A DNA stretch of 64,000 nt, from positions 2,170,001 to 2,234,000 of the forward strand of contig NZ_CP123229.1 in assembly GCF_029855125.1 (NCBI RefSeq), given 5' to 3'. This document shows positions 4,279-54,432 of the stretch, piece by piece (within the stretch, counting starts at the first letter, position 1; every line of letters begins with the position of its first letter). The notes under the pieces were generated by a model. That model did no database searches, was not told where the DNA came from, and saw nothing but the letters and a program-made list of their open reading frames with translations. The stretch is from Methylocapsa sp. D3K7 (GTDB taxonomy: Bacteria; Pseudomonadota; Alphaproteobacteria; Rhizobiales; Beijerinckiaceae). The translations under genes were made by a program, and so were the position numbers.

Positions 4279-5949
4279 CTACTGAAAAATTTTTGCGGCG
4301 TTCTCAAGCGTCTTCCACACGCCCCAGGCAAGTGGGATTCCAACCGCCGCCCAAGCCAAGCCCGCTTTCGCATCAATGCCGCCCCGGCCAATTCCATAGG
4401 ACTTGAACGCCACCTTTGCGCCCGCGAGCGCCGTTTGCGGGGTGTTGTCCTTCATATACCATTTGGGAGAGACTGGACGAATCAGCGCGTTGCACACGAA
4501 CCCCACGGCCAGCAAAGCCGCCAAAACATAAAAGATATAGGGGTACACATGGTCGCGCGGAACGCCTTCCGCCACCCGCGTATCATGCAGATAGTTGACG
4601 ATAACCGGACCGACGATGCCAGCGGTCGACCATGCGGTGAGCAAGCGGCCGTGAATCGCGCCGACATACCGCGTGCCGAACATATCGGCGAGATAGGCGG
4701 GCACCGTCGCAAAGCCGCCGCCATACATGGACGCAATGATGCAGAACGCCGCGGCAAAAATCCCGACCGCCTTAAGGCCCGCCAGCGTTGGTGCGGCTGA
4801 ATAGCAAAGGATGCCAAGGACAAAGAAGGCAAAATAGGTTGTCTTGCGGCCAATCTTGTCGGAGAGCGTTGCCCAGAAAAACCGGCCGCCGATGTTGAAC
4901 AAGGAGAAGAGGCCGACGAAGCCGCCACCGATCGCCGCCGCCAAAGTCTTTTGCGCGTCCGTGAACTGGCTGAAACCAACCGAGGGATCACGGAACAAAG
5001 TGCCGCCGAAGGTTTCCTGAAGCATCGGCGAGGCGGCGCCGATGATGCCGATCCCGGCTGACACATTGAGGCACAGCACACCCCAGATCAACCAGAACTG
5101 GGGAGTCTTGTGGGCGTCCTTGAGATCGACGTTGTGTGACGTGATCATCGCCTTTTGGACCGTGGATGGAGTCCAGCCGTCAGGGCGCCAGCCGTCTGGC
5201 GGCAGCCGGTACCCGAAGGCGCCCGCAAGCATATAGATGAAATAACCAACCCCCAGGACCACAAAGGTTTGCCAGACCCCGACCGAGGTTGGAGTCTTAA
5301 AATAATTCATCAGCAAGGTCGCCAGCGGCGAGCCTATCATGGCGCCGCCGCCAAACCCCATGATCGCCATGCCTGTCGCCATGCCGCGCCGGTCCGGAAA
5401 CCATTTGATGAGGGTCGAAACCGGCGAAATATAGCCAAGCCCAAGTCCGATGCCGCCGATGATGCCCGAACCGACCCAGAGCATCCACAGCTGATGGAAG
5501 TTGACCCCGACCGCCGAGATCATCAAGCCGCCGCACCAGCAAAGCGCCGCGTAAACGCCCGCCTTGCGGGGACCAACCCGCTCCAGCCAGCCGCCCCAGA
5601 TCGCGGCGGAGGAGCCGAGCAAAACAAAGAACAGCGTGAACATCCAGCCAAGATCAAATTGAGTCCATTCGCAATCCCTGGCCGTCAGCGCGTGCAGGGT
5701 TCCGGCGGTCTTGTCCCAAAACGTCGTCGCCGCGCCGGCGCAAGCTGCCACTTTGGCTCCCGTCGCGGTCCCGACCGCACGCGACAGCGGCAGCCAGAAA
5801 ACGCTGAACCCATAAGCCATGCCGATACACAAATGGATGGCGAGCGCGGCGGGAGGCACGAGCCAGCGGTTGAACCCGGCCTTGGCGATAATTCTATCCC
5901 GTTCAAGAATACCTGGCGATGCCGCAGCGATTGACGTGCTCATGCTCAT
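4279..5949 (-). CDS. OFA-family MFS transporter (oxalate/formate antiporter-like)
   Basis: A 556-residue major facilitator superfamily protein with at least twelve hydrophobic segments and the OFA-family layout: an N-terminal helix ending GMAYGFSVFWLPL, the GGIGLGLGYISPVSTLIKWFPDRRGMATG segment after helix 4 (written here across its two halves), and a C-terminal extension with another membrane segment. OFA members exchange oxalate/formate or related monocarboxylates at the inner membrane, but the substrate cannot be fixed from sequence. ATG 5949 (ATGAGCATG, after GGGG) is preferred because upstream residues to 6102 are not family-like. Isocitrate lyase and TCA genes elsewhere in the window make an organic-acid substrate plausible. 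Confidence 0.85.
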   Translation of the reverse strand: MSMSTSIAAASPGILERDRIIAKAGFNRWLVPPAALAIHLCIGMAYGFSVFWLPLSRAVGTATGAKVAACAGAATTFWDKTAGTLHALTARDCEWTQFDLGWMFTLFFVLLGSSAAIWGGWLERVGPRKAGVYAALCWCGGLMISAVGVNFHQLWMLWVGSGIIGGIGLGLGYISPVSTLIKWFPDRRGMATGMAIMGFGGGAMIGSPLATLLMNYFKTPTSVGVWQTFVVLGVGYFIYMLAGAFGYRLPPDGWRPDGWTPSTVQKAMITSHNVDLKDAHKTPQFWLIWGVLCLNVSAGIGIIGAASPMLQETFGGTLFRDPSVGFSQFTDAQKTLAAAIGGGFVGLFSLFNIGGRFFWATLSDKIGRKTTYFAFFVLGILCYSAAPTLAGLKAVGIFAAAFCIIASMYGGGFATVPAYLADMFGTRYVGAIHGRLLTAWSTAGIVGPVIVNYLHDTRVAEGVPRDHVYPYIFYVLAALLAVGFVCNALIRPVSPKWYMKDNTPQTALAGAKVAFKSYGIGRGGIDAKAGLAWAAVGIPLAWGVWKTLENAAKIFQ

Positions 5950-6140
5950 TACCCCGTAACGCGTTGATAAGGCTACGCCCGGCCGAGACGCCGTGCGGAA
6001 AAAGTCGATATTTAGTAATTTTGCATAACGAGGGTCACGACGCGCGTAACACCTCGCTCTCCCCCACGCCAAAATCTTAACCAATGCGCCATTCAAACAC
6101 AACCGGCGGCTATCGGCGGGAATGTTGGGGAACTGAATGT

Positions 6141-6420
6141 CTACGCGTCGATCTTGAGAACCACACGGAAGCGCGCCTTGCCGCTCATCATCCGGTCGTA
6201 GGCGGCCTGGGCTTCTTCAAGCGGGAAAATCTCATTCATCGAGGCGATCTTGTTGAACTGACTGAATGAGAGCGTATCTTCGGAGTCGGCCGCAGTGCCC
6301 GAATACCAGCCCCGCACCGAAGCGCGTTTCCGCGTGCCGCCCGGGGTCGGGAAGATCGCGCTCCACCATGCGGAACCGCCCGCCGGGTTCTGGAACGATC
6401 ATTGCGCGCATCTTCACCAT
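6141..6420 (-). pseudogene. internally deleted Zn-dependent alcohol dehydrogenase remnant
   Basis: The 5' part reads MVKMRAMIVPEPGGRFRMVE, the N-terminus of a zinc alcohol dehydrogenase, with GGAGG before its ATG. The 3' part, in a different frame, reads SEDTLSFSQF and then FPLEEAQAAYDRMMSGKAR...VVLKIDA-stop, a typical C-terminus of the same family. Only about 90 codons remain of about 340: the catalytic-zinc and NAD-binding middle is missing and the frame changes near 6310. It lies just downstream of the DUF190 gene in the fluoride-associated operon and so was probably once its last gene. Confidence 0.82.
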
Positions 6421-6443
6421 TATGGCCTCCACTGCGGATTCGA

Positions 6444-6794
6444 TCAGCTTCCCTGCGTCTTGGCGGTCGAGCCATATTGCAGGACTTGCACCTTCTCCAA
6501 GGTGACCAGCCCGCTCGCCATCATGGAGTCCAGCACCGGCAGAAAGGCGTTGATCTTATCCTCGCTGTCGACGATCTCGATGACGAACGGCAGATCCTCC
6601 GAAAGCCGGAGAATCTTCGTGGTGTGCACCCGGCTCGAATGACCAAAGCTCATCGGCCCGCGCAACACGGTGGCGCCGGCCAAATGCATCTCGCGCGCCT
6701 TCATGACAATCGCCTCGTACAGCGGCTGATGGTCGTGGCGGTCGTCCTCGCCGATAAAGATCCGCAGCAGCATGGCATCGCGCGGGATTTGCAT
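6444..6794 (-). CDS. DUF190 (PII-like) protein
   Basis: A 116-residue DUF190 protein, a small PII/CutA-like ferredoxin-fold family often linked to CrcB fluoride channels and potassium/proton antiporters. Family-like segments are LLRIFIGEDDRHDHQPLYEAIV near the N-terminus (shown in part) and PFVIEIVDSEDKINAFLPVL in the middle. ATG 6794 follows GAGGAG by 9 nt. It starts 13 nt after the UspA stop, so it is cotranscribed with the antiporter and UspA genes. A regulatory role for the antiporter is an inference from context. Confidence 0.85.
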   Translation of the reverse strand: MQIPRDAMLLRIFIGEDDRHDHQPLYEAIVMKAREMHLAGATVLRGPMSFGHSSRVHTTKILRLSEDLPFVIEIVDSEDKINAFLPVLDSMMASGLVTLEKVQVLQYGSTAKTQGS

Positions 6795-6807
6795 TTCGTT
6801 AAACTCC

Positions 6808-7230
6808 TCACTTCGCGATGAGCACCGGGCATGGTGCAAGGTGCATGATGCGATCCGCGCGGCTTCCGACCAGCCGCTCATACAACGCGGAATGACCTCT
6901 GGCTCCGATAATAAGCAATTCCACCTTGAGATCGCCAGCAAGCGTGACAATACTACGCACCGGGTGCCCGGCGATCACATGAGTCGTGAGTTTCACCTGG
7001 CTTTCGTCCGCCATCGCTCGGGCACGCTGGAGAACGCTGTGGAAGCGCCGCGCGGCGCTTCCTGTTTCTTCCCGGACTTCTTCAACGAATTCCGGCATAT
7101 AATCGATTTCTTCGACCGAGACCATGTGAAGGGACGACTCATTTTGTTTGGCGATCGCAATCGCGAGGGTGAGCGCGTGAAACGCATGTTCCGAGCCGTC
7201 GTTGGCGTGCAGGATTCTGCTGAACATCAA
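6808..7230 (-). CDS. universal stress protein (UspA family)
   Basis: A 140-residue single-domain UspA protein. It starts MMFSRILHANDGSEHA (the nucleotide-binding Asp is in this segment) and ends with the ATP-binding pattern GARGHSALYERLVGS followed by CPVLI, at about residues 109–138, so an ATP-binding type is expected. Its ATG overlaps the antiporter stop by 4 nt (ATGA), indicating translational coupling. UspA genes are among those reported downstream of fluoride riboswitches, which fits this operon. Confidence 0.92.
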   Translation of the reverse strand: MMFSRILHANDGSEHAFHALTLAIAIAKQNESSLHMVSVEEIDYMPEFVEEVREETGSAARRFHSVLQRARAMADESQVKLTTHVIAGHPVRSIVTLAGDLKVELLIIGARGHSALYERLVGSRADRIMHLAPCPVLIAK

Positions 7231-8465
7231 ACGCCTCCCGGATCAACCGATTTACCGATCCCATGCTGGATCGGAACAACGCCCGCCTGTCTGGCTGGTG
7301 TATCCTCCGCCTCGCTGCTGGGCCTGAGATGGTGCGGCAGATAAAATGCATTGGCAATCACCGTCGGGATGACAGCGCTTGCAATGACGGTTGCGACAAG
7401 CGCCGAGTATTGGCTCTTGTCGATGATCCCATGGGAGAGGCCAAAGAGGGATGAGATTGTCCCAAAGGTTAGTCCCGTGGACATCAGGAGGGTCGTGTAC
7501 ATCGCCTCCTGGTTCGGAGAGCCAAAGAGCCGCGTGACCGGATATACGCCGATGACTTTGGTGGCGATCTTGATAATCAGGAAAAAAAAGAAAGCAGCGG
7601 GTGCAGCGATCAGCGCCGGGATCGAAACAAAGGAACCGGCGCGGATAAAATAGAACGGCGTCAGCAGGCCGAACGTTAGCGTGCGCAAGCGCCGGACCAA
7701 TGCGTGATCTTTGCCGACGGTTCCGGCAAGCACCATTCCGATGAGATAGGCGGGGAGTACCGCTTCGCTGTCGGCCCAGGCGGCGAGCGCGCCCATACCA
7801 AGCAGGCAAAACAGCAGAAATTTTGTCTCAAGCTCGGAAGGCCGGCCACCATACCGTTTGAAGAAGCGCGGCGTGAGCCACGGAAGCACGGTGAAGACAA
7901 CGGCGCCCACTCCAAGGAAGATCAATGTTTTAATCGTGAACGGAGCAAAGATGAGACCAAGCGCGACGACCGTCCCGAGGTCGGTCACAAAGCATGCGGC
8001 CAAAATCGTCTTACCATATTCGGTGGTATTGAAGCCGAATTCCAGCATTACGGCATAAACGACGGCCACCGAGGTCGTCGACATGGCGACCCCGGCAAGC
8101 CAGCTCGGCATGACGTTCCAGCCGAGCAAATAATGCGCCGCAGCCGCGCATCCCAGAAATGGGAATAAGAAGCTCGCGAGCCCGATCGTGGCCGCTTCCT
8201 TCCATTTCAGTTTGAAAACCTGCGGGTCGAGTTCGGCGCCCGCGAGAAACGTCAAGACAATTGCGCCTATTCCCGAAAGAAACTTGACCCAGGACTCGTC
8301 GGTCCCAAGCACGGCCGAGCCAACGACGGCGCCAATGATCAATTGCGCGACTGTTCCAACAATGATTTCGGACAGCGCCGTCGAGACGCGGAACCAGATC
8401 GAAAACAGGCTCGCGATCAGCGCGAGACCTAGCCACAGGGATGCGAGTGCCCAAACGCCAGTCAT
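7227..8465 (-). CDS. cation:proton antiporter (CPA2/Kef-type, membrane domain only)
   Basis: A 412-residue polytopic Na+/H+ exchanger-domain protein with about twelve hydrophobic helices. LAACFVTDLGTVVALGLIF (around residues 155–173) carries the acidic residue expected in the ion-binding helix. There is no C-terminal TrkA-N/RCK domain, unlike KefB/KefC; the separate UspA and DUF190 proteins encoded downstream may supply regulation. The ATG is preceded by GAGGGTGAATC. It is the first gene after the fluoride-type riboswitch, so expression is probably fluoride responsive. The ion specificity is unknown. Confidence 0.88.
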   Translation of the reverse strand: MTGVWALASLWLGLALIASLFSIWFRVSTALSEIIVGTVAQLIIGAVVGSAVLGTDESWVKFLSGIGAIVLTFLAGAELDPQVFKLKWKEAATIGLASFLFPFLGCAAAAHYLLGWNVMPSWLAGVAMSTTSVAVVYAVMLEFGFNTTEYGKTILAACFVTDLGTVVALGLIFAPFTIKTLIFLGVGAVVFTVLPWLTPRFFKRYGGRPSELETKFLLFCLLGMGALAAWADSEAVLPAYLIGMVLAGTVGKDHALVRRLRTLTFGLLTPFYFIRAGSFVSIPALIAAPAAFFFFLIIKIATKVIGVYPVTRLFGSPNQEAMYTTLLMSTGLTFGTISSLFGLSHGIIDKSQYSALVATVIASAVIPTVIANAFYLPHHLRPSSEAEDTPARQAGVVPIQHGIGKSVDPGGV

Positions 8466-8599
8466 GATTCACCCTCGCGCTTGAAGGGGTGACGAGCACA
8501 CGGCACGCAGGCCCTGGCGACCCGAAAGCCTTGGCCTTCGGACATCGGCATGAACGAAAAAGCCGGAAATTCCACAATAAGTGAGAGACACACAGCAAT

Positions 8600-8665
8600 C
8601 TCCTGCCCGTTGTTGCGTGGCAGGAGTCATCAGCCTCTTCGGCAATTTTGGGGGACTCCATCCCC
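8600..8665 (-). ncRNA. fluoride riboswitch (crcB motif)
   Basis: On the minus strand the 8665–8619 segment runs GGGGATGGAGTCCCCC, an A-rich joint, then GCC-GAAGA-GGC and CTGATGACTCC. This matches the crcB RNA layout: helix with ATG in its loop, A-rich joint, short hairpin, CUGAUG, and a 3' strand whose ACTCC (8627–8623) pairs with GGAGT (8659–8655) as the pseudoknot. It then overlaps a competing 8-bp hairpin, CTCCTGCC (8626–8619) with GGCAGGAG (8607–8600), which would break the pseudoknot: a plausible expression platform, though without a T tract. It lies 135 nt before the antiporter gene and downstream of crcB. Confidence 0.88.
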
Positions 8666-8770
8666 GTTCGAGGACGCAATTCTAACCGAGAATCGATCCG
8701 TGGCAAGGTTTAGATATTTCCGTACAAGCAAGCGGAACCTGCAGCGGAAATCTCTTGGATTTGCATCGCG

Positions 8771-40227: not shown

Positions 40228-41850
40228 ATGAATTATCAAAGCCCGATCGCCCAGCCGAACGAATATCAAAGCCATATTGCCGAGGTGAAGCAGCTCGTCA
40301 AAAGCAAGAACGGCACCTGGGACGCCATCAACGCCGAATCCGTGGCGCGGATGCGCCTGCAAAACCGTTTCCAGACGGGTCTCGACATCGCCCGCTATAC
40401 GGCCGCGATCATGCGCAAGGACATGGCGGCCTATGACGCCGACCCGGCCCTTTACACCCAGTCGCTCGGCTGCTGGCACGGGTTCATCGGCCAACAGAAG
40501 ATGATCTCCGTCAAGAAGCATTTTGGCACGACCGACCGACGCTATCTGTATCTCTCCGGCTGGATGGTCGCCGCGCTGCGCTCCGATTTCGGCCCCCTGC
40601 CGGATCAGTCGATGCATGAGAAAACCTCCGTGCCGGCGCTGATCGAGGAGCTTTACACCTTTTTGCGCCAGGCGGACGCCCGCGAACTCGGCGGCATGTT
40701 CCGCGCGATCGACGCCGCCCGCAAGGCCGGCGACGCCGCCAAGGAAAAAGAATTGCTGGCGGCCGTCGACAATTATCAGACCCATGTCGTGCCGATCATC
40801 GCCGACATCGACGCGGGCTTCGGCAATGCGGAAGCGACCTATCTGCTCGCCAAGAAGATGATCGAGGCGGGCGCCTGCGCGCTGCAGATCGAAAACCAGG
40901 TGTCCGACGAAAAGCAATGCGGCCACCAGGACGGCAAGGTCACCGTCCCGCATGAAGTGTTCCTCGCGAAGGTGCGCGCCTGCCGCTACGCCTTCCTGGA
41001 ACTCGGCGTGGAAGAGGGCATTATCGTCACCCGCACGGACTCGCTCGGCGCCGGTCTCACCCAGCAGATCGCCGTCAGCCACGAGCCGGGCGATCTCGGC
41101 GACCAATACAATGCCTTCCTCGACTGCGAGGAAGTTGCGCCTGGCGATGCCCGCAACGGCGACGTCATCCTCAACCGCAACGGCAAACTGCTGCGGCCGA
41201 AGCGTCTCCCCAGCAACCTCTATCAGTTCCGCTCCGGCACCGGCGCGGACCGTTGCGTGCTCGACTCCATCACCTCGCTGCAGAACGGCGCCGACCTCCT
41301 ATGGATCGAAACCGAAAAGCCGCATGTGGAGCAGATCGCCAGCATGATGGACAAGATTCGCGCCGTCATTCCCAACGCCAAGCTGGTGTACAACAATTCG
41401 CCGTCCTTCAACTGGACATTGAATTTCCGCCAGCAGGTGTATGATGCCTGGAAAGCGAGCGGCAAGGATGTGTCGAAATATGACCGCGCGGGTCTGATGA
41501 GCGTCGATTATGACGGCAGCGATCTCGCCGCCGAGGCCGACGAGCGCATTCGCACCTTCCAGGCGGACGGTTCGAAGCGGGCTGGCATTTTCCACCACCT
41601 CATCACGCTGCCGACCTATCACACGGCGGCGCTGTCGACCGACAATCTGGCGAAGGAATATTTTGGCGCGCAGGGCATGCTCGGCTATGTCAAAAATGTT
41701 CAGCGCAAGGAAATCCGTGAGAGCATCGCGTGTGTGAGACATCAGAACATGGCGGGCTCCGACATGGGCGATGATCACAAGGAATATTTTGCTGGCGAGG
41801 CGGCCCTCAAGGCCGGCGGCGCCCACAACACGATGAACCAGTTCGGTTAA
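40228..41850 (+). CDS. aceA: isocitrate lyase
   Basis: A 540-residue isocitrate lyase of the larger subclass (about 530–550 residues, as in Pseudomonas). It cleaves isocitrate to glyoxylate and succinate. The signature with the catalytic Cys is KQCGH (about 229–233), where many members have KKCGH; DIDAGFGN and IENQVSDEKQ are also visible. ATG 40228 follows AAGG; a TTG at 40198 is less likely. No malate synthase is in the window. A strong terminator follows. Confidence 0.96.
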   Translation: MNYQSPIAQPNEYQSHIAEVKQLVKSKNGTWDAINAESVARMRLQNRFQTGLDIARYTAAIMRKDMAAYDADPALYTQSLGCWHGFIGQQKMISVKKHFGTTDRRYLYLSGWMVAALRSDFGPLPDQSMHEKTSVPALIEELYTFLRQADARELGGMFRAIDAARKAGDAAKEKELLAAVDNYQTHVVPIIADIDAGFGNAEATYLLAKKMIEAGACALQIENQVSDEKQCGHQDGKVTVPHEVFLAKVRACRYAFLELGVEEGIIVTRTDSLGAGLTQQIAVSHEPGDLGDQYNAFLDCEEVAPGDARNGDVILNRNGKLLRPKRLPSNLYQFRSGTGADRCVLDSITSLQNGADLLWIETEKPHVEQIASMMDKIRAVIPNAKLVYNNSPSFNWTLNFRQQVYDAWKASGKDVSKYDRAGLMSVDYDGSDLAAEADERIRTFQADGSKRAGIFHHLITLPTYHTAALSTDNLAKEYFGAQGMLGYVKNVQRKEIRESIACVRHQNMAGSDMGDDHKEYFAGEAALKAGGAHNTMNQFG

Positions 41851-41889
41851 AAGACCAGCTCTTTCATCATTGCACCATTCGGAATGGAG

Positions 41890-41922
41890 ATCGCGGCCCT
41901 CTCACCGGGCCGCGATTTTTTT
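41890..41922 (+). terminator. intrinsic terminator of aceA
   Basis: ATCGCGGCCC (41890–41899) pairs with GGGCCGCGAT (41907–41916) around a 7-nt loop and is followed by a T run (to 41922). A classic rho-independent terminator 40 bp after the aceA stop. Confidence 0.93.
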
Positions 41923-42019
41923 GAGGGTGCAAATCGTTTGTGCCGGGGGCAAGTCGCGGCTTACTCGCTCCTAATTGATCGACGGTCGCCATCATGACGG
42001 ATGGCATTGGGCGCTACTA

Positions 42020-43822
42020 CTATACCGTTTTCGAAGGCACTGCCGCTGCAGGTGATGGATTGAAGGGTGTCGGCGATGCAGACATTGTGGCAGCAGCTTT
42101 GAGTTTAGCGTAATCATCGAGCACGGTTTCGATACGCGTGAGAAGTGGATCAAAGCCCGAAAAGTCGATGGTGCCCGCTTGCAGCCGCACAACGCGGTCG
42201 GCAAAGATGACTTTGCCGTACTCGCCAGAGGCCTCGTGCTCCTTGTCAGCGTTGAAGGTCTTGCCGTTGATTTTTGTTGCAAGCAGAGCTTGATCGAAAA
42301 AATCTTCCGGGCGGGACTTGTTGTCGGGCCCCCTGGTTGGCGTCTTTATTAGATAGAGCGGGCCGCCTAGATAGTAGAATGGCAGGTCCGTCGCGTGATT
42401 AATGGTAATGCCGAACTTCTTGCTCTGAAGCAGTTTGAAAATCTGCGTGGCACCATCGTCGTTGTCGATAAGCACGATCACCGGGTGCTTCATCGGACGG
42501 TGCCTGTATTTAGCTAAGTTGTCCTTCCACGCTTCAAGAAAAAATTTGAGGTCAGAGGAACCGCCTCGTAGCTGCAGAAGGTCTTTCGATTGCTTTGAAT
42601 ATTTAAAAAAGTTCACGTTGATAGAAAGCTTGCCTTCATTGGACGACGCGAGCTTCGGGTGTCCTGTCGCCAGCTTGCGGATCGCGCTCTTAAGATAGAT
42701 CGGATCGGTAGGTCCTTCGCAGATGATGAGCGGTTTGGGCGGATCGATGAAGTGTTTGAAGAATACGAGCCGACAGTAGACGAGGCGAATGGCTGAGGGA
42801 TACTCATTTTTTTGTTTAGTACGATCAGTGTGCAGCTTGTGCTGTTTTTCCTTGTTCTTTTCAGCTTCAATCTCAAGATCAGTTTGTCGTTCTCGGATGT
42901 GATAGATATGGTTAAGAATGCCCTCTAGGCGTTGCACGGAAGTGTCATCCACGCCGCCGCGCTTATAGGTGCCGGTAGTGAGAAATGAATTTGTCATCGC
43001 ACGCGCAAGTTTGTAGTAACGCTGCGGCACGTTGACCTTCTCGTTGACCGTGAGGCCTGTCACGGTTTGACGGCTACCTCGCACCTGCATGCGGGTTTTG
43101 GCATCGTTGATGGTGAAGCCCCCATCCTCGATGCGCGATTTTAACTCATCACCCAGCACCCAGGCTTCGCCTATCGCTACTGCCAAGGCCGTAGGAAATT
43201 TCTCCTGACTAGTCGACAAAGTGATGTCGTCCGCATAGCGGGTGTAAGCACATTTGTTTCTTGCGGCCAGCTTGACCAGTCGCATATCGAGAAAATGGGT
43301 TAGTAGTTCGGACAGGATAGGAGAGCATGGGCTTCCCTGCGGCAAGACCCCATCATTGCAAGCGATTTGGGCGAGGACGGTCGCAACCGGTTCCGCCAGC
43401 CTAAATTGATTGTTATTGATAAAGAAGCCGCGCACACGACCGAAGTGCAAACTCGGAAAGAAATTCTTCAGGTCGAGATTCAGCACATACCGGCGCGATT
43501 TGTGCGCTTTCGCATTTGTGATGATCGAATAGTCCCTGCGAAACGCGTGCGACAACTTGTTCTCGCGTTTCTCGGATTCTTCAAGCTCGTGCAGGCATTC
43601 GTAAAGAACGTCGGCGAACCGCTTCTGCAAGCCCTTGAGCATCGGAATCGGCGCGTCGATGCGGCGGTCGCCGCCGCCTTTCTTTTTGATGTCGAAGCTC
43701 GTGTATTTCGCCGCCTTCGGAATTTTATAGACGATGAAGGAGAGGGCGCTCGGCTTGTAGCCAAGCAGCGCCGCAACATCATATCGGGTTTTTGCTGTGC
43801 GAACGGCGTTAAGTATCGACAA
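42020..43822 (-). CDS. retron reverse transcriptase with C-terminal TOPRIM-like domain (Ec67-like)
   Basis: A 600-residue protein. The RT domain (about 40–300) has LDLKNFF (116–122), GVRGFF-type NFGRVRG equivalent HFGRVRGFF, LPQGSPCSP (160–168), YADD (196–199) and the retron-typical VTGLTV (254–259). The C-terminal part has TOPRIM marks: Glu369 in ICEGPTD and the acidic IDNDD (452–456). From memory, the order and motifs match retron Ec67 (Eco2), an anti-phage retron whose RT carries a fused TOPRIM. The start is TTG 43822, giving SILNAVRTAKTRYD as in that family. The msr-msd lies 22 nt upstream. The gene is visibly more AT-rich than its neighbours, suggesting transfer. Confidence 0.93.
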   Translation of the reverse strand: MSILNAVRTAKTRYDVAALLGYKPSALSFIVYKIPKAAKYTSFDIKKKGGGDRRIDAPIPMLKGLQKRFADVLYECLHELEESEKRENKLSHAFRRDYSIITNAKAHKSRRYVLNLDLKNFFPSLHFGRVRGFFINNNQFRLAEPVATVLAQIACNDGVLPQGSPCSPILSELLTHFLDMRLVKLAARNKCAYTRYADDITLSTSQEKFPTALAVAIGEAWVLGDELKSRIEDGGFTINDAKTRMQVRGSRQTVTGLTVNEKVNVPQRYYKLARAMTNSFLTTGTYKRGGVDDTSVQRLEGILNHIYHIRERQTDLEIEAEKNKEKQHKLHTDRTKQKNEYPSAIRLVYCRLVFFKHFIDPPKPLIICEGPTDPIYLKSAIRKLATGHPKLASSNEGKLSINVNFFKYSKQSKDLLQLRGGSSDLKFFLEAWKDNLAKYRHRPMKHPVIVLIDNDDGATQIFKLLQSKKFGITINHATDLPFYYLGGPLYLIKTPTRGPDNKSRPEDFFDQALLATKINGKTFNADKEHEASGEYGKVIFADRVVRLQAGTIDFSGFDPLLTRIETVLDDYAKLKAAATMSASPTPFNPSPAAAVPSKTV

Positions 43823-43844
43823 CGCGAACCACCAGAAGGAATGG

Positions 43845-43975
43845 GCTTACAGGCACTCCTACGCGTCGCATAGGTCATAGGTCATTGGTCATATGCATCG
43901 AGCACCGTATAGGGAGCAGCGCCCCTAACATTGGATCATATATCGCGAATCACGATAACAAATCTGCCTGTAAGC
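43845..43975 (-). ncRNA. retron msr-msd non-coding RNA
   Basis: On the minus strand, GCTTACAGGCA (43975–43965) and TGCCTGTAAGC (43855–43845) form a perfect 11-bp inverted repeat: the expected a1/a2 helix of a retron RNA. A G follows a1 directly (43964), a candidate branching guanosine. The msr part contains a small hairpin, TATCG–loop–CGATA (about 43957–43941), and an AGGG/CCCT stem (about 43925–43910). The msd part forms a long hairpin with CCTA/TAGG at its base and GCATA/TATGC higher up, its loop holding three ATGACC repeats. Size, strand and position just before the RT fit Ec67-type retrons. Confidence 0.88.
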
Positions 43976-44202
43976 TTGTTGCCAGTGTAGCGACGAACTT
44001 GATCGATGCAATCCACCAGGTCCAGCGTGTCGTGTTTATCCACATAACCGGGGGCTCCCGAAGAATTTGGATGTCGCCGGCCAATCCGTCCTCCGCCATG
44101 TGGTGGAAGAGGACTGTAAAACGGCACGGGCATCGGCCACTCAGGCGGCCAACTGCATGTCGGCCGCCCTAAAGATTTTCGCTTCTCTTGGCCGTCGCCG
44201 TG
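43976..44202. other. flank upstream of the retron, no gene recognised
   Basis: 227 bp between the msr-msd and the phosphoesterase stop. Frames on both strands run through it (for example minus 44133 to 43936), but they overlap the retron RNA, lack ribosome-binding sites and match nothing known. The retron promoter should lie here. It may contain a boundary of the inserted segment. Confidence 0.4.
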
Positions 44203-45984
44203 TCAGAACTTGAAGAAGTTCATGAGATCGCCAATGGCGGGAGAGTTTTTAGGCACATAAGCGTTTCCACGTTCAGCGACCGGGTTTGGCAATCTGTCGC
44301 GGCTCAGACGCGAAATGGGGGGCAGAGTCCAGTTCTTCTCGATGAACTTCAACAGCGAGACATGGTCGTAATAGGTGTGATCGACATATCCCCTTTTCGC
44401 AAAGGGCGACACCACAATGAAGGGAATGCGCGTCCCGTCGCCAAAGAAATCGAGCGGCTGGATATAGCCTGAATCATAATAACCGCCGCCTTCATCGGTG
44501 GTGATGAAGATGGCCGTCGAGGCCCAAAGTGTTGCGTTGCTTTTGACTTGCTCGATCAACGACTGGAGGAAAAGCTCGTAAAGGTCGGTGGTCGAATCGG
44601 CGGGATGTCCGGCCAAGGCCTCGAACGGACGAACAAAAGACACAGCGGGCAGCGTCCCGTTCTTCACATCGTTCAAGAACGCACCGTAATTTTGTAATTT
44701 CGCTTCCTCCGACGGATTTTTCATGATGCTCAAATAGCCGGTGAGCGGATCACAAATACCGCAGTAGGAATGGAACAGCAAAGGCACGCCATCGACCGAA
44801 GTGGCGAAGTTGGTGGGATCGTCGCCGCGATCGCCGCTGTAATATTTCCACGATACGCCTTTCGCGGTCATGACATCGGCGATGGTCGGGATGCTCTGCG
44901 GCGGCAAAGTGAAAGACGCCGGACCGAGAGTCCTTGGGTTGCTGCTCGTCTGGTTCCAATACATATTGTAGTTGTTGACCAGATAATAATGGTTCGGGGC
45001 GCAGTTGGTGCTGGCACCGGCGCGAAGGTTCTGTACGCTCACCGCGGCAACGCCTGGCGCCCTCGAATCGGAGCAGTTCACATAGGAACCGCCGCTATAG
45101 CCGTCTTGGGTGTAGTAATTGTTGGTTCCGGCGACCGGATCTGGATTTTCGATCTGATTGCTGAACGGCACGGCGGCGGTGCCGTCGAGATTGGTGTTGG
45201 TGAAGAAGGCTGCATGGCCTGAAACGAGCGCCTGAAAATTGGCTCCCGTGCCGCCCATGATCGCTTGGTGGCAATTATCGCTGATCGCATATTGGTCGGC
45301 GAGCGATTTGAAGATGGCCGCATCGCCAGGCTGCGCTTTGCCAGTGGCATCGGTAAAAGGGTTCATATTGTAGAAGCCCATCGAGATGGCGCCTTCCATG
45401 GGATTGAACCCTCCGGCCGGGGGAGGCGCGCCGTTCGATCCGGTGCCGATGGTTTCCTCGACCCAAACGAATTTGTCGAGCTTGCCGCCATCATAGTCCT
45501 GCCACATCTGAAAGAAGCGATGGACAGGATCACCCGTATAGGCGGAGTAAGGCACATATTTGCTAATCTGATAGGGACCGTTCGGCAGATTGGCGGGAAA
45601 CCGCGTATCGAGAACGCCTTGCGGCAACCCGAGGCCATAGGTCGTATAGGGCTGCGGCAGCGTCGCGTAGGCGCCGGTCGTAACGGTCTTCGTACTGTAA
45701 TGAATCTCGTCGCGTCCGATCGCCTGTTTCGCCTTATCGAAATGCGGGCCAGGCGTACCGTCGGCATTGACGATGCCTTTGCTTATGAGATTGTCGATCG
45801 TTTGGCCGGCCGCCGGCTTATAGGTGCCGAAGAGATTGTCGAAGGTGTGATTTTCGCCGACAATGATGATCACATGCTGGATCGGCGTTGTTGGGAGCGG
45901 CGTTGCGAGAACCGGCGTGAATATCTGCGTGCAAAACGCGCTCGTCGCAAGGCACAGCGATTTGAAAAGCGGCTTCGATGTCAT
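44203..45984 (-). CDS. phospholipase C-like phosphoesterase
   Basis: A 593-residue exported protein of the phosphoesterase family (bacterial phospholipase C / acid phosphatase type). The signal peptide is about residues 1–28. The metal-binding start of the domain is HVIIIVGENHTFDNLFGTY (about 37–55), with later TTDEGGGYYDSG and a C-terminal DHTYYDHVSLLKFIEKNW, all typical. ATG 45984 follows AGAGGAC. It would hydrolyse phosphate esters or phospholipids in the periplasm or outside. Specificity is unknown. Confidence 0.88.
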   Translation of the reverse strand: MTSKPLFKSLCLATSAFCTQIFTPVLATPLPTTPIQHVIIIVGENHTFDNLFGTYKPAAGQTIDNLISKGIVNADGTPGPHFDKAKQAIGRDEIHYSTKTVTTGAYATLPQPYTTYGLGLPQGVLDTRFPANLPNGPYQISKYVPYSAYTGDPVHRFFQMWQDYDGGKLDKFVWVEETIGTGSNGAPPPAGGFNPMEGAISMGFYNMNPFTDATGKAQPGDAAIFKSLADQYAISDNCHQAIMGGTGANFQALVSGHAAFFTNTNLDGTAAVPFSNQIENPDPVAGTNNYYTQDGYSGGSYVNCSDSRAPGVAAVSVQNLRAGASTNCAPNHYYLVNNYNMYWNQTSSNPRTLGPASFTLPPQSIPTIADVMTAKGVSWKYYSGDRGDDPTNFATSVDGVPLLFHSYCGICDPLTGYLSIMKNPSEEAKLQNYGAFLNDVKNGTLPAVSFVRPFEALAGHPADSTTDLYELFLQSLIEQVKSNATLWASTAIFITTDEGGGYYDSGYIQPLDFFGDGTRIPFIVVSPFAKRGYVDHTYYDHVSLLKFIEKNWTLPPISRLSRDRLPNPVAERGNAYVPKNSPAIGDLMNFFKF

Positions 45985-46333
45985 TGGATGTCCTCTGAAC
46001 AATTGCGGCGAGGTTTTTCACGCAGAAGCAAAGAGTGACTTCGCCCTGCGGCAATCAAACCTGAGCGCCCCATATATCGGCGGCCGCAATTTCAGGCTGA
46101 TGTCAGGTGCAATGCAGTTTTATGAAGCGCCTTCGCCCACCGGGATAGCCAGGGCGCACCGAGGATTTGGACCCACAGGGACAAACCGAGCCGAATGGAC
46201 CCGCGTCCAGGCCCGCCCTCCGCGACTTTCCGCCTCTCCTCCGCTGAGCAAAAGCCACAAATCCGGTCACCCTTCTGCTATATTGCTGCGCCAGTTACCC
46301 TTCCAAATCGCGGCTTGCCACTCTGGGGGATTG
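45985..46333. other. intergenic region between divergent phosphoesterase and galU
   Basis: 349 bp without a supported gene. A plus-strand frame is open through it into galU, but no start with a ribosome-binding site or family-like sequence exists before 46334. It must hold the promoters of both divergent genes. No repeat or hairpin stands out. Confidence 0.4.
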
Positions 46334-47218
46334 ATGACGAAACGCATACGCAAGGCTGTTTTTCCAGTTGCCGGTCTTGGAACCCGATTTCTGCCGGCCA
46401 CCAAATCGGTGCCGAAGGAAATGATGACCGTCGTCGACCGGCCTGTCCTCCAGCATGTCGTGGATGAGGCGCGCGAGGCCGGAATCGAGCATTTCATCTT
46501 CATCACCGGGCGCAACAAAGGCGTCATCGAGGATCATTTCGATATCGCCTATGAGCTGGAGGAGACCTTGCAAAGGCGCGGCAAGCTCAAGGAGTGGGAG
46601 GCGCTCAAGGCCGATCTTCCGGCGGCGGGCGCGACGAGCTTCACCCGCCAGCAGGAGCCGCTCGGACTCGGCCATGCGGTCTGGTGCGCACGGGAGATCG
46701 TTGGCGACGAGCCTTTCGCGGTGTTGCTCCCCGACATGGTGACGATGGCTTCGGAACAAGGCCGCTGTCTCGCGCAATGCGTGGACGCTTATGAAAAACA
46801 CGGCGGCAATATTATTGCGGTCGAGGAAGTGGCTTCGGACGAAACCCACCAGTACGGCGTTGTTGCGATTGGCAAGGATTCCGGCCACACCTTCGAGATC
46901 ACCGGCATGGTTGAAAAACCGCCCAAGGGGACAGCCCCTTCCAACCTGATCATTTCAGGACGCTATATTCTGGGTCCGGAAATCTTTTCCATTTTGGAAA
47001 AAGGCGAGAAAGGGGCGGGGGGTGAAATTCAACTCACCGATGGCATGAAAATCCTCGCCAAGAGTCAGAGCTTTCACGGCGTGCGCTTCGACGGCAAGAC
47101 CTATGATTGCGGCGCCAAACTGGGGTTTCTCGCCGCCAATATCGCCTTTGGCCTCGCCAATCCCAACTTGGCTCCGCTGCTTCTGGCCGAACTGAAAAAA
47201 CTAACCAGCGGCCTCTAG
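46334..47218 (+). CDS. galU: UTP–glucose-1-phosphate uridylyltransferase
   Basis: A 294-residue nucleotidyltransferase making UDP-glucose for polysaccharides and glycolipids. The N-terminal GLGTRFLPATKSVPKEM (about 14–30) is the nucleotide-binding signature, and QEPLGLGHAVWCAR with VLLPDMV lies in the active site. GGGGGATTG precedes ATG 46334. It is followed by two small palindromes. Confidence 0.96.
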   Translation: MTKRIRKAVFPVAGLGTRFLPATKSVPKEMMTVVDRPVLQHVVDEAREAGIEHFIFITGRNKGVIEDHFDIAYELEETLQRRGKLKEWEALKADLPAAGATSFTRQQEPLGLGHAVWCAREIVGDEPFAVLLPDMVTMASEQGRCLAQCVDAYEKHGGNIIAVEEVASDETHQYGVVAIGKDSGHTFEITGMVEKPPKGTAPSNLIISGRYILGPEIFSILEKGEKGAGGEIQLTDGMKILAKSQSFHGVRFDGKTYDCGAKLGFLAANIAFGLANPNLAPLLLAELKKLTSGL

Positions 47219-50044: not shown

Positions 50045-50947
50045 TTATCCCTTCAGCCTCCGGCAGACAAACTCCAACTGATCCAAGGTCTTGTAACGCA
50101 GGCGCAATTCGCCAGCCTCGGTGGCGCTCTGAGCTATGATCGCCTCAATCCCCAGCGCGTCTTTCAGGCTCTTTTCCAGGGCCCGTGTATCGGCCGGCTT
50201 TTCCTCAGGCTCGCGTTTGCGCGGTCCCTGGCCCTTGGCGCGGACGGGTTCCGGCGCCGGCTCCAGCATTTGCTCGACGTCGCGGACAGATAAATTTTGC
50301 GCAATTATCTTGTCTGCTAGCAAATCGGGCTCTTGGGATGTCAAGAGCAAGCGCGCATGACCCGCCGAAAGCTTGCCTTCCCGCAGCAGGATTTTCACAC
50401 GGTCGGGAAGCCTCAAGAGCCGCAGGCTGTTGGCGACATGGCTGCGGCTCTTGCCGATGATTTTGGCGAGATCCGTCTGACTATAATTGAACTCGTCGAG
50501 AAGCTGCTCATAGCCCGCCGCTTCCTCGAGCGGGTCGAGGTCGGTGCGCTGGACGTTTTCAATGATCGCCAGCGCCAGCGCCTCGCGGTCGTCCGCCTCG
50601 ACGCTGTGGATCGGCACCTCATGCAAACCGGCGCGCTGCGCCGCCCGCCAGCGGCGTTCTCCGGCGATGATTTCGAACATGCCCGCTTGACCGGCCGCCG
50701 GCCGCGCGAGAATTGGCTGGATAATCCCCTTTTCCTTGATGGATGCCGTTAGCTCCGCGAGTTCCTCCTCGCCAAATTGCCGGCGCGGATTGCGCGGATT
50801 GGGGCGGAGAAATTCGATCGGCAATTTTTTGGGCGCGCGGGAGGCTCCCATCCCACTTTCGGCTTGCGTCTCGGCGCCGCCGAGAAGCGCGGCGAGCCCT
50901 CGCCCGAGCCGCGGCCGTGCCTCTTCGGCCGGTTTGTTTGCTTTCAT
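50045..50947 (-). CDS. parB: chromosome partitioning protein ParB
   Basis: A 300-residue ParB/Spo0J protein. RLGRGLAALLGG (about 13–24) is the start motif contacting ParA; the CTPase/nuclease-like domain contains GERRWRAAQRAGL (GERRxRA, about 93–105); the helix-turn-helix for parS is around YSQTDLAKIIGKSRSHVANS; and a C-terminal dimerisation domain ends the chain. It binds the two parS sites found at 54457 and 54740. It follows parA by 54 bp. Confidence 0.97.
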   Translation of the reverse strand: MKANKPAEEARPRLGRGLAALLGGAETQAESGMGASRAPKKLPIEFLRPNPRNPRRQFGEEELAELTASIKEKGIIQPILARPAAGQAGMFEIIAGERRWRAAQRAGLHEVPIHSVEADDREALALAIIENVQRTDLDPLEEAAGYEQLLDEFNYSQTDLAKIIGKSRSHVANSLRLLRLPDRVKILLREGKLSAGHARLLLTSQEPDLLADKIIAQNLSVRDVEQMLEPAPEPVRAKGQGPRKREPEEKPADTRALEKSLKDALGIEAIIAQSATEAGELRLRYKTLDQLEFVCRRLKG

Positions 50948-51001
50948 TCTAGGTTTTCCAATCTCGGCACGTTTTTGTTACATCACGCATCCGCCTCGGG
51001 A

Positions 51002-51820
51002 TCAGGCCGCGCGTTGCTGACGCTCGCGCTGAATAACCTCCGAGGCCAATTTCAAATAGGCCTGGCTGCCGCTACATTTAAGGTCATAGAGCAGCACCGG
51101 CTTCCCATGCGATGGCGCTTCGGACACCCGGACATTGCGCGGAATGACCGTTTCATAGACCTTGTCGCCCATGAACCCCCGCACATCGGCCACGACCTGC
51201 ACGGCGAGCGAGTTGCGTTGATCGAACATGGTCAGAACGATCCCGTGGATGGTCAGTCCAGGATTTAGCGTGTTCTTGACTTGTTCCACGGTGCTGAGAA
51301 GCTGCGATAAGCCTTCCAGCGCGAAAAACTCGCATTGCAGCGGGACCACCACGCTATCGGCGGCCGCCATCGCGTTCATGGTCAGCAAATTGAGGGACGG
51401 CGGGCAATCGACCAGCACATAGGTCAAGCGCTCTTCAATGGGTCCGCCGCGCTGCTCTTCCGCCAGCGATGTCAGGGCTTTCTTGAGACAAAAAGCGCGG
51501 TCTGGCCGTGCCGCGATCTCAAGTTCGAGACCGACGAGATCAATCGTCGAGGGAGCGATGAACAAACGAGGAACACCCGTTTCGCGGAGGACGGCCGCGA
51601 GCGACTGTTCCCCGGTCAAGACATCATAGGTCGAGAATTCACGCTCGGCACGCCCAATCCCGAGGCCGGTGGAGGCATTGCCCTGCGGATCGAGATCAAT
51701 GATGAGAACCCGCTCGCCCATCGCGGCGAGCGCCGTGCCGAGGTTGATCGCGGTCGTCGTCTTGCCAACGCCGCCCTTTTGATTGGCAAGCACGAGCACG
51801 CGCATCTCGGCGGCCGCCAC
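51002..51820 (-). CDS. parA: chromosome partitioning ATPase ParA
   Basis: A 272-residue ParA/Soj ATPase driving origin segregation. The deviant Walker A KGGVGKTTTA and the switch LVDCPPSLNLLTMNA are clear. The start is taken as GTG 51820, with AGGAG 6 nt upstream; ATG 51805 is the other choice, but lacks a good ribosome-binding site. Upstream sequence to 51958 overlaps the rsmG 3' end and is not family-like. Confidence 0.96.
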   Translation of the reverse strand: MAAAEMRVLVLANQKGGVGKTTTAINLGTALAAMGERVLIIDLDPQGNASTGLGIGRAEREFSTYDVLTGEQSLAAVLRETGVPRLFIAPSTIDLVGLELEIAARPDRAFCLKKALTSLAEEQRGGPIEERLTYVLVDCPPSLNLLTMNAMAAADSVVVPLQCEFFALEGLSQLLSTVEQVKNTLNPGLTIHGIVLTMFDQRNSLAVQVVADVRGFMGDKVYETVIPRNVRVSEAPSHGKPVLLYDLKCSGSQAYLKLASEVIQRERQQRAA

Positions 51821-51912
51821 ATCGCTCTCCTCGACAACGTCTAAGGTATTGAATCTACGAGCTTTAAAGCGGAAATCGGTAGCCAAGACAGATCCATCCA
51901 AACCGCAGCGAT

Positions 51913-52560
51913 TCAGCTCTCGCTCCGCTGGACCAGCACCAAGCGCGCCGTCGCGCATGTTTGGCTTTGCATGGTCGTGATAAAATATTTACCGGCCGTT
52001 AACGAGTCGGTCAATTCACTCTCGAATTGTTTCCCCTTGGAAAAAACCCCCGTCGCGCCATTTTCGATGAATTTTTTTGCGTGGCTCAGAAGGACGTCCA
52101 TCGGCGCCAAGGCGCGGGCACTGACCGCGTCGATGGGCTCGTCGAAAGCCGGCAGAATCGTTTCGAGTCTGCCGCAATGAAGGATGGCAGGCGCCGATGT
52201 CTCGCGGATGACGGTTTGCAGAAAGGCGCATTTGCGGCGGTCCGACTCGATGAGATGCACGCGCGCCTCCGCGTTCCCCGCATATTTGATCGCCGTGACG
52301 AGCCCCGGAAATCCGGCGCCCGAGCCAAAATCCAGCCAGCGACGCGCTTCCGGCACCGCATTCGACACCTGCAGGGAATCGGCGAAATGCCGGACCCACA
52401 TGTCGGCGAGGGTGGAGGGCCCCACCAAATTGAGCGACTTCTGCCATTTTTCGAGGAGATTTGCGTAGATGTGCAAGCGCCGCAGAGTCTCGTCCGGCAG
52501 CTGGGCCAAGAGCGGATGGGCGAAGCGGATGGACGCGTGAGCGGGAGAGCTCTTTGGCAA
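51913..52560 (-). CDS. rsmG: 16S rRNA (guanine-N7)-methyltransferase RsmG
   Basis: A 215-residue SAM-dependent methyltransferase (GidB) modifying G527 of 16S rRNA. The SAM motif LDFGSGAGFPGLV is at about 76–88, and SARALAPM and FSKGKQFESE are typical. No ATG fits; TTG 52560 is used and lies 3 bp after the mnmG stop, which indicates translational coupling. Confidence 0.93.
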   Translation of the reverse strand: MPKSSPAHASIRFAHPLLAQLPDETLRRLHIYANLLEKWQKSLNLVGPSTLADMWVRHFADSLQVSNAVPEARRWLDFGSGAGFPGLVTAIKYAGNAEARVHLIESDRRKCAFLQTVIRETSAPAILHCGRLETILPAFDEPIDAVSARALAPMDVLLSHAKKFIENGATGVFSKGKQFESELTDSLTAGKYFITTMQSQTCATARLVLVQRSES

Positions 52561-52563
52561 GGA

Positions 52564-54432
<1,869 letters not shown>

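Follow-up and report, generated by a model that had tools for sequence, protein, structure and literature searches.

A probable complete type I-C (Ec67/Eco2-family) retron with a covarying msr-msd RNA in Methylocapsa sp. D3K7

The stretch of DNA analyzed here (the window) comprises 64,000 nucleotides of Methylocapsa sp. D3K7 (contig NZ_CP123229.1, positions 2,170,001 to 2,234,000). On its minus strand lies a gene for an RT-Toprim fusion protein, preceded by a noncoding RNA (ncRNA) region and located between an isocitrate lyase gene, aceA (PF00463), and a phosphoesterase gene (PF04185), the two neighbors that the first-pass annotation had named. The AT-richness that it had noted is likewise seen, the GC content being 51.9% for the RT and 49.6% for the ncRNA, versus 59.4% for the window and 61.2% for aceA. 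The features of the locus are as follows:

42020..43822, minus strand: RT-Toprim fusion gene, 600 amino acids, TTG start, stop included (NF038237, PDLC02966, PDB 9i2f, alignment to Eco2)
42722..43822, minus strand: RT part, about residues 1-367, with Pfam RVT_1 at residues 45-258; boundary taken from the Eco2 alignment
42104..42721, minus strand: Toprim part, about residues 368-573, with E369, D373, D453, D455 and E506 aligned with Eco2
43845..43975, minus strand: msr-msd noncoding RNA, a1 through a2, 131 nt (match to the blind covariance model at E=5.3e-12; covariation)
43965..43975, minus strand: a1, 5' arm of the inverted repeat (repeat search; helix 1 of the aligned ncRNAs)
43845..43855, minus strand: a2, 3' arm of the inverted repeat (repeat search; helix 1 of the aligned ncRNAs)
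43964, minus strand: predicted branching guanosine, next base after a1, CAGA context
43941..43957, minus strand: msr hairpin, 7 bp with a 3-nt loop (fold, alignment and pair counts)
43857..43929, minus strand: predicted msd template for an msDNA of about 73 nt (alignments, and Eco2 msd limits from the available text of PMC12405507)
43869..43893, no strand assigned: 7-bp tandem repeat, 3.6 copies, within the predicted msd (tandem-repeat search)
43984..44011, minus strand: promoter-like TTGCAT-16-TACACT, ending 8 nt before a1, with a like layout in relatives

The RT-Toprim frame is open with no stop, and the host genome carries one copy. The NCBIfam model retron_Ec67_fus (NF038237) scores 670.1 bits (cut-off 450) over residues 5-571 of the protein, the two top PADLOC models are both RT-Toprim_I-C (719.4 bits for PDLC02966, and 709.5 bits), and the best PDB matches are entries of the Ec67 protein, with E=1e-124 (9i2f, residues 2-573) and E=2.7e-124 (residues 2-572). 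Against Retron-Eco2 (Ec67) of E. coli S10 the protein shows 40% identity (229 of 579 columns). The retron RT motifs, named NAxxH, YADD and VTG in the available text of PMC12405507, are all present in the window protein, as read from an alignment of seven proteins (A2), namely as NAKAH at residues 103-107, YADD at 196-199 and VTG at 254-256; the aromatic residue F43 corresponds to Eco2 F46. Pfam reports only RVT_1 at residues 45-258 and no separate Toprim match; the fusion of a Toprim part to the RT C-terminus is seen in the reach of NF038237 to residue 571 and of the Ec67 alignment to residue 573. The RT with YADD and VTG and the TOPRIM-like C-terminus that the first-pass annotation had read from the letters are both borne out, and the search against retron HMMs that it had proposed points to the Ec67 family.

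An RT with an RVT_1 fold, which is common to these RTs, might instead be part of a group II intron or a diversity-generating retroelement (DGR). However, the group II intron maturase model TIGR04416 scores only 41.6 bits where its cut-off is 300, the RT is fused to a Toprim part, and an msr-msd is present upstream. The RT tree places the protein elsewhere as well. In this tree of 29 rows, the window protein groups with its relatives from Bradyrhizobium campsiandrae (locus L001) and Arboricoccus pini (L003) with support of 100/99, and the nine rows that we labelled as Ec67 family, these included, lie on one side of a single branch (support 88/68). Five of the 33 candidate loci (L046, L030, L032, L036 and L044) were dropped from the tree, having no open frame of at least 250 amino acids with a motif. 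The tree held no named group II or DGR rows, and closeness to retrons rather than to group II introns was also taken from the HMM scores. Given the PADLOC and NCBIfam scores and the covariance-model match described below, the group II intron or DGR reading is considered already refuted and retains practically no probability.

The Toprim part was compared with the Eco2 active site, given in the available text of PMC12405507 as E374/D460/D462, D378/S513/E515 and K562. Eco2 residues E374, D378, D460, D462 and E515 align with E369, D373, D453, D455 and E506 of the window protein, and these five are invariant in all seven aligned proteins. Eco2 S513 aligns with R504, a serine being found at the neighboring position 503, and the S513-equivalent position also varies among the relatives in A2. 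Eco2 K562 has no placeable counterpart since residue 562 of the Eco2 protein from E. coli S10 is an aspartate, and the K562 printed in PMC12405507 is probably a numbering slip; K537 (Eco2 K546) is a lysine that is invariant in the seven aligned proteins. The Eco2 trimer-loop residue R332, whose change to alanine abolished Eco2 defence according to the same text, aligns with H328 in a poorly conserved and poorly aligned stretch.

Upstream of the gene, the two arms a1 and a2 are 11 nt each, 100% complementary and separated by 109 nt, with 22 nt (43823-43844) between the msr-msd and the TTG start. This reproduces the layout first reported, i.e., a 131-nt region on the same strand flanked by perfect 11-bp inverted repeats, and position 43964, next to a1, is indeed a G on the minus strand. 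By itself the inverted repeat is weak evidence, because mononucleotide shuffling of the 400 nt upstream gave a perfect 11-bp repeat with arms 60-200 nt apart in 34 of 5000 trials; it becomes strong evidence because it is conserved and covaries in relatives. The same layout lies directly upstream of the RT in nine relatives, and these were aligned with the window into a set of ten ncRNAs (A1), from which L002 (a near-copy of L001), L018, L019, L020 and L021 were left out. Helix 1, formed by a1/a2, spans 14 column pairs with 100% of cells paired in the ten sequences; for a1/a2 and the msr hairpin together, 97.9% of cells are paired and both sides have changed in 15 of 21 pairs. The covariation score is 0.582 versus 0.281 for shuffled alignments, none of 500 of which scores as high, and it falls to at most 0.137 when the pairing is slid. 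The slid control is the weightier of the two because the shuffle control can be inflated by relatedness among the sequences. Further pair types are no more numerous than in shuffles (272 of 500 as high).

A covariance model (A3) was built from the seven distant relatives in A1, leaving out the window, L001 and L003. Over the whole 64 kb it returned one match up to E=10, at 43843-43977 on the minus strand, with 62 bits and E=5.3e-12. Rfam detected no family at the ncRNA, neither over the window at the gathering threshold nor over 43700-44200 at E up to 5. The single Rfam match of the window lies elsewhere and is a fluoride riboswitch (RF01734, 49.6 bits, E=9.7e-11) at 8614-8674 on the minus strand, with an open reading frame for a Na_H_Exchanger protein (PF00999) downstream on the same strand (7227-8465). 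In the 27 other sources searched, A3 matched L001, L002, L003, L018 and L020. At the divergent locus L019, whose RT-Toprim protein exceeds the NCBIfam cut-off, it gave only 13.9 bits (E=0.76), and it missed L021, whose protein scores 308 bits, below that cut-off; the sequence of L004 begins inside the RT gene. With the Eco2 locus coordinates taken from the available text of PMC8934634, the model also found Eco2's own RNA upstream of the Eco2 RT (E=6.4e-11). The family models, the end-to-end match to Eco2, the RT tree and this blind covariance model agree in making the locus an Ec67/Eco2-like retron, as had been suggested.

The model was further applied to viral contigs, in which the best 80 of 182 relatives fall into 78 loci: 42 of these (L098-L139) are matched to at least residue 426, into the Toprim part, and 36 (L140-L175) are matched over the RT part only, ending by residue 348. 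Among these best 80, A3 matched at E <= 1e-4 in 40 of the 42 RT-Toprim loci and in none of the 36 RT-only loci. The two RT-Toprim loci without a match, L124 and L134, have no upstream DNA, since their sequences begin at the RT match or 24 bases before it. Several of the 40 matched loci are identical, and the 52 matches correspond to 42 distinct sequences, for which the covariation is 0.776 versus 0.315 in shuffles, in an alignment fitted to the A3 model. Because most RT-Toprim loci are separated from RT-only loci in this way, the model can help to mark the ncRNA in the RT-Toprim family, which Rfam misses at the window locus. At three loci (L046, L018 and L020) the RT-Toprim frames look interrupted (two tblastn pieces or internal stops) and the upstream ncRNA is still recognisable.

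Within the ncRNA, the base after a1 stands in the CAGA context that the available part of the review PMC6868368 gives for the branch G of Retron-Eco2. Both ends of the msd are placed by analogy with Eco2 and are to be taken as approximate. Folding, another check that had been proposed, gives z = -3.80 versus shuffles for the whole ncRNA, and z = 0.10, no better than shuffles, for the predicted msDNA; a strong msd hairpin was looked for in the window by folding and alignment and was not found. The weak fold was considered as a peculiarity of the window and dropped: with mononucleotide shuffles and approximate msd ends, z lies above -2 in 35 of the 42 distinct family sequences, window included, and since only 7 of 42 reach -2 or lower, the weak fold is not special to the window. 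The msd interior is little conserved across the family, and a search of the ncRNA regions of L001 and L003 returned no tandem repeat at the score of the heptamer array. There is an outside chance that such an array, set in a largely unstructured msDNA and lacking in the two nearest relatives, varies in length between strains and so tunes what the retron senses, while the effector would be kept in check solely by the msr and the conserved 5' end of the msDNA (TCCTACGCG...).

A strict sigma-70 scan found no consensus promoter. A looser pattern, TTGNNN, 16-18 nt, and TANNNN or CATAAT, ending 6-8 nt before a1, is present in nine of the ten aligned sequences, window included; 2000 shuffled sets hold it in 0.18 sequences on average and in three at most, a comparison that is optimistic because the pattern was written after the sequences were seen. 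The lack of a strict promoter, the changed S513 equivalent in the Toprim metal site, the TTG start and the weak msd fold would all fit a retron whose sequence is intact but which the host leaves silent or which is partly impaired there. Such impairment is nevertheless improbable, as the frame is open without a stop, the covarying stem is kept, the promoter-like layout recurs in nine of the ten sequences, and the S513 position varies in relatives too.

The host genome contains one match to AMO/pMMO (349.8 bits), and two matches to PQQ alcohol dehydrogenase exceed the cut-off; these genes fit a methane oxidiser, in line with the methylotroph-like host that had been presumed. None of the 14 congeners, of which one is 77% complete, has a match to the retron protein. 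A match of any kind occurs in six of the 60 genomes searched, the host's own among them, and in the five others it is confined to RT residues. In a sample of 385 genomes of the class, the NF038237 cut-off is exceeded in six, own included. The aceA gene is strongly matched in 12 of the 14 congeners; among the ten congener stretches compared, galU follows aceA only in genome G010 (the stretch of G006 ends 1.2 kb past aceA). The aceA-galU gap measures 0.95 kb in G010 and 4.5 kb, with the retron and the phosphoesterase, in the window. The G010 junction holds a gene for a ParE-type toxin (PF05016) and a small upstream open reading frame (L085, 3238-3776, plus strand). The sequence comparison indicates a gain or a loss at this junction. 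In view of the occurrence among genomes and the low GC content, gain is the more parsimonious of the two, and the retron was probably gained. Of the recent gain that had been proposed, the absence from all 14 congeners and the retron-free junction of G010 speak in favor, whereas the extent is less certain: the gained stretch may exceed the retron because the phosphoesterase is also missing in G010.

No exact repeat of at least 9 nt that could be a target-site duplication exists between 41840-42030 and 43976-44205, and one 9-nt match of 41840-42030 with 46003-46334 was taken as chance. Nor was a defence island apparent among ten window proteins (a subset of the genes at 29.9-59.3 kb), seven of which have no PADLOC match and three only weak matches (at most 37.1 bits; an HTH regulator, ParB and a LeoBC-like protein). 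ParB and MnmG/GidA genes, which usually lie near the replication origin, stand close together at 50045-54432 on the minus strand, about 6 kb from the retron.

Mobility of the RT-Toprim retron family elsewhere is plain from sequence comparison. The DNA of L001 (Bradyrhizobium) is 99.9% identical to that of L002 (an Afipia MAG) over 8.8 kb and 99.97% identical to that of L004 (Ancylobacter) over 3.5 kb, reflecting recent horizontal transfer or, for the MAG, possibly contamination. Matches were found in 187 plasmid records, of which 17 cover at least 80% of the protein (best identity 44%), and in 53 phage records, of which one does so.

Judged from its sequence, the locus holds an intact RT-Toprim gene whose motifs are conserved, preceded by an msr-msd that is typical of the family and in which the a1/a2 stem and the msr hairpin covary. 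It is best explained as a complete type I-C (Ec67/Eco2-family) retron that works in the general Eco2-like way, with a probability of about 0.87. The transcript would start near a1, and the RT would prime from the 2'-OH of G43964 and copy about 73 nt into msDNA, which would keep the RT-Toprim protein assembled in an inactive state. Damage to the msDNA by phage nucleases would then release the Toprim RNase, and the freed RNase would shut down the infected cell, stopping phage growth. For Eco2, the available text of PMC12405507 describes msDNA and RT-Toprim as a self-inhibited trimer and proposes that msDNA damage by the phage nuclease DenB frees the RNase. The effector role of the window Toprim is carried over from this work, and the specific RNase and nuclease-trigger step is reasonably probable by analogy. 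It is rather unlikely that the Toprim acts on a different substrate, such as DNA or tRNA, or that the trigger is not a DenB-like nuclease, a view that overlaps the Eco2-like explanation by accepting the retron and disputing the last step only. Toprim effectors do vary in target (Gabija and PARIS, as mentioned in PMC12405507) and the msd interior is little conserved in the family, but the E, the D, the DxD and the second-metal Glu are kept as in Eco2.

The locus falls within an established class of anti-phage defence, whose single protein both produces a short DNA linked to RNA and bears a toxic nuclease, and is an ordinary addition to a well-described family already in NCBIfam, PADLOC and PDB. 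With it, a methane oxidiser joins the hosts of Ec67-type retrons with a convincingly located msr-msd; a literature search on retrons and methanotrophs returned no title about a methanotroph retron.

The nearest relatives, L001 and L003, have RT-Toprim proteins 64% and 63% identical to that of the window, identical 11-nt a1/a2 arms and nearly the same msr, whereas their genomic neighbors are unlike those of the window. L001 lies near an OLD-type ATPase-Toprim gene beside a UvrD-like helicase gene (5875-8729, minus strand), a pair that we take to be Gabija-like. A retron on a plasmid of Sinorhizobium meliloti GR4 (L045), annotated as retron Ec67 family, is 47% identical to the window protein and, unlike the window retron, sits on a mobilizable plasmid. 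Retron-Eco2 (type I-C; E. coli S10; PDB 9i2f, 9lm3) adjoins a phage portal gene, whereas the window retron has no phage gene among the neighbors examined and is carried by a methanotroph's single contig of 4.15 Mb. Eco2 S513 and R332 align with other residues in the window protein, R332 in a poorly aligned stretch, the window msd interior differs from that of Eco2 and carries the heptamer repeat, and the Eco2 msDNA is described as a single long hairpin, in contrast to the predicted window msDNA with no fold beyond shuffles. In both systems, however, a single RT-Toprim protein is encoded, with the key Toprim acidic residues in common; the msr-msd lies just upstream of the RT and is matched by the A3 model; the branch G stands in CAGA; there is one msr hairpin with a 3-nt loop; and the window msr hairpin resembles the single short hairpin that the available text of PMC12405507 gives for the Eco2 msr.
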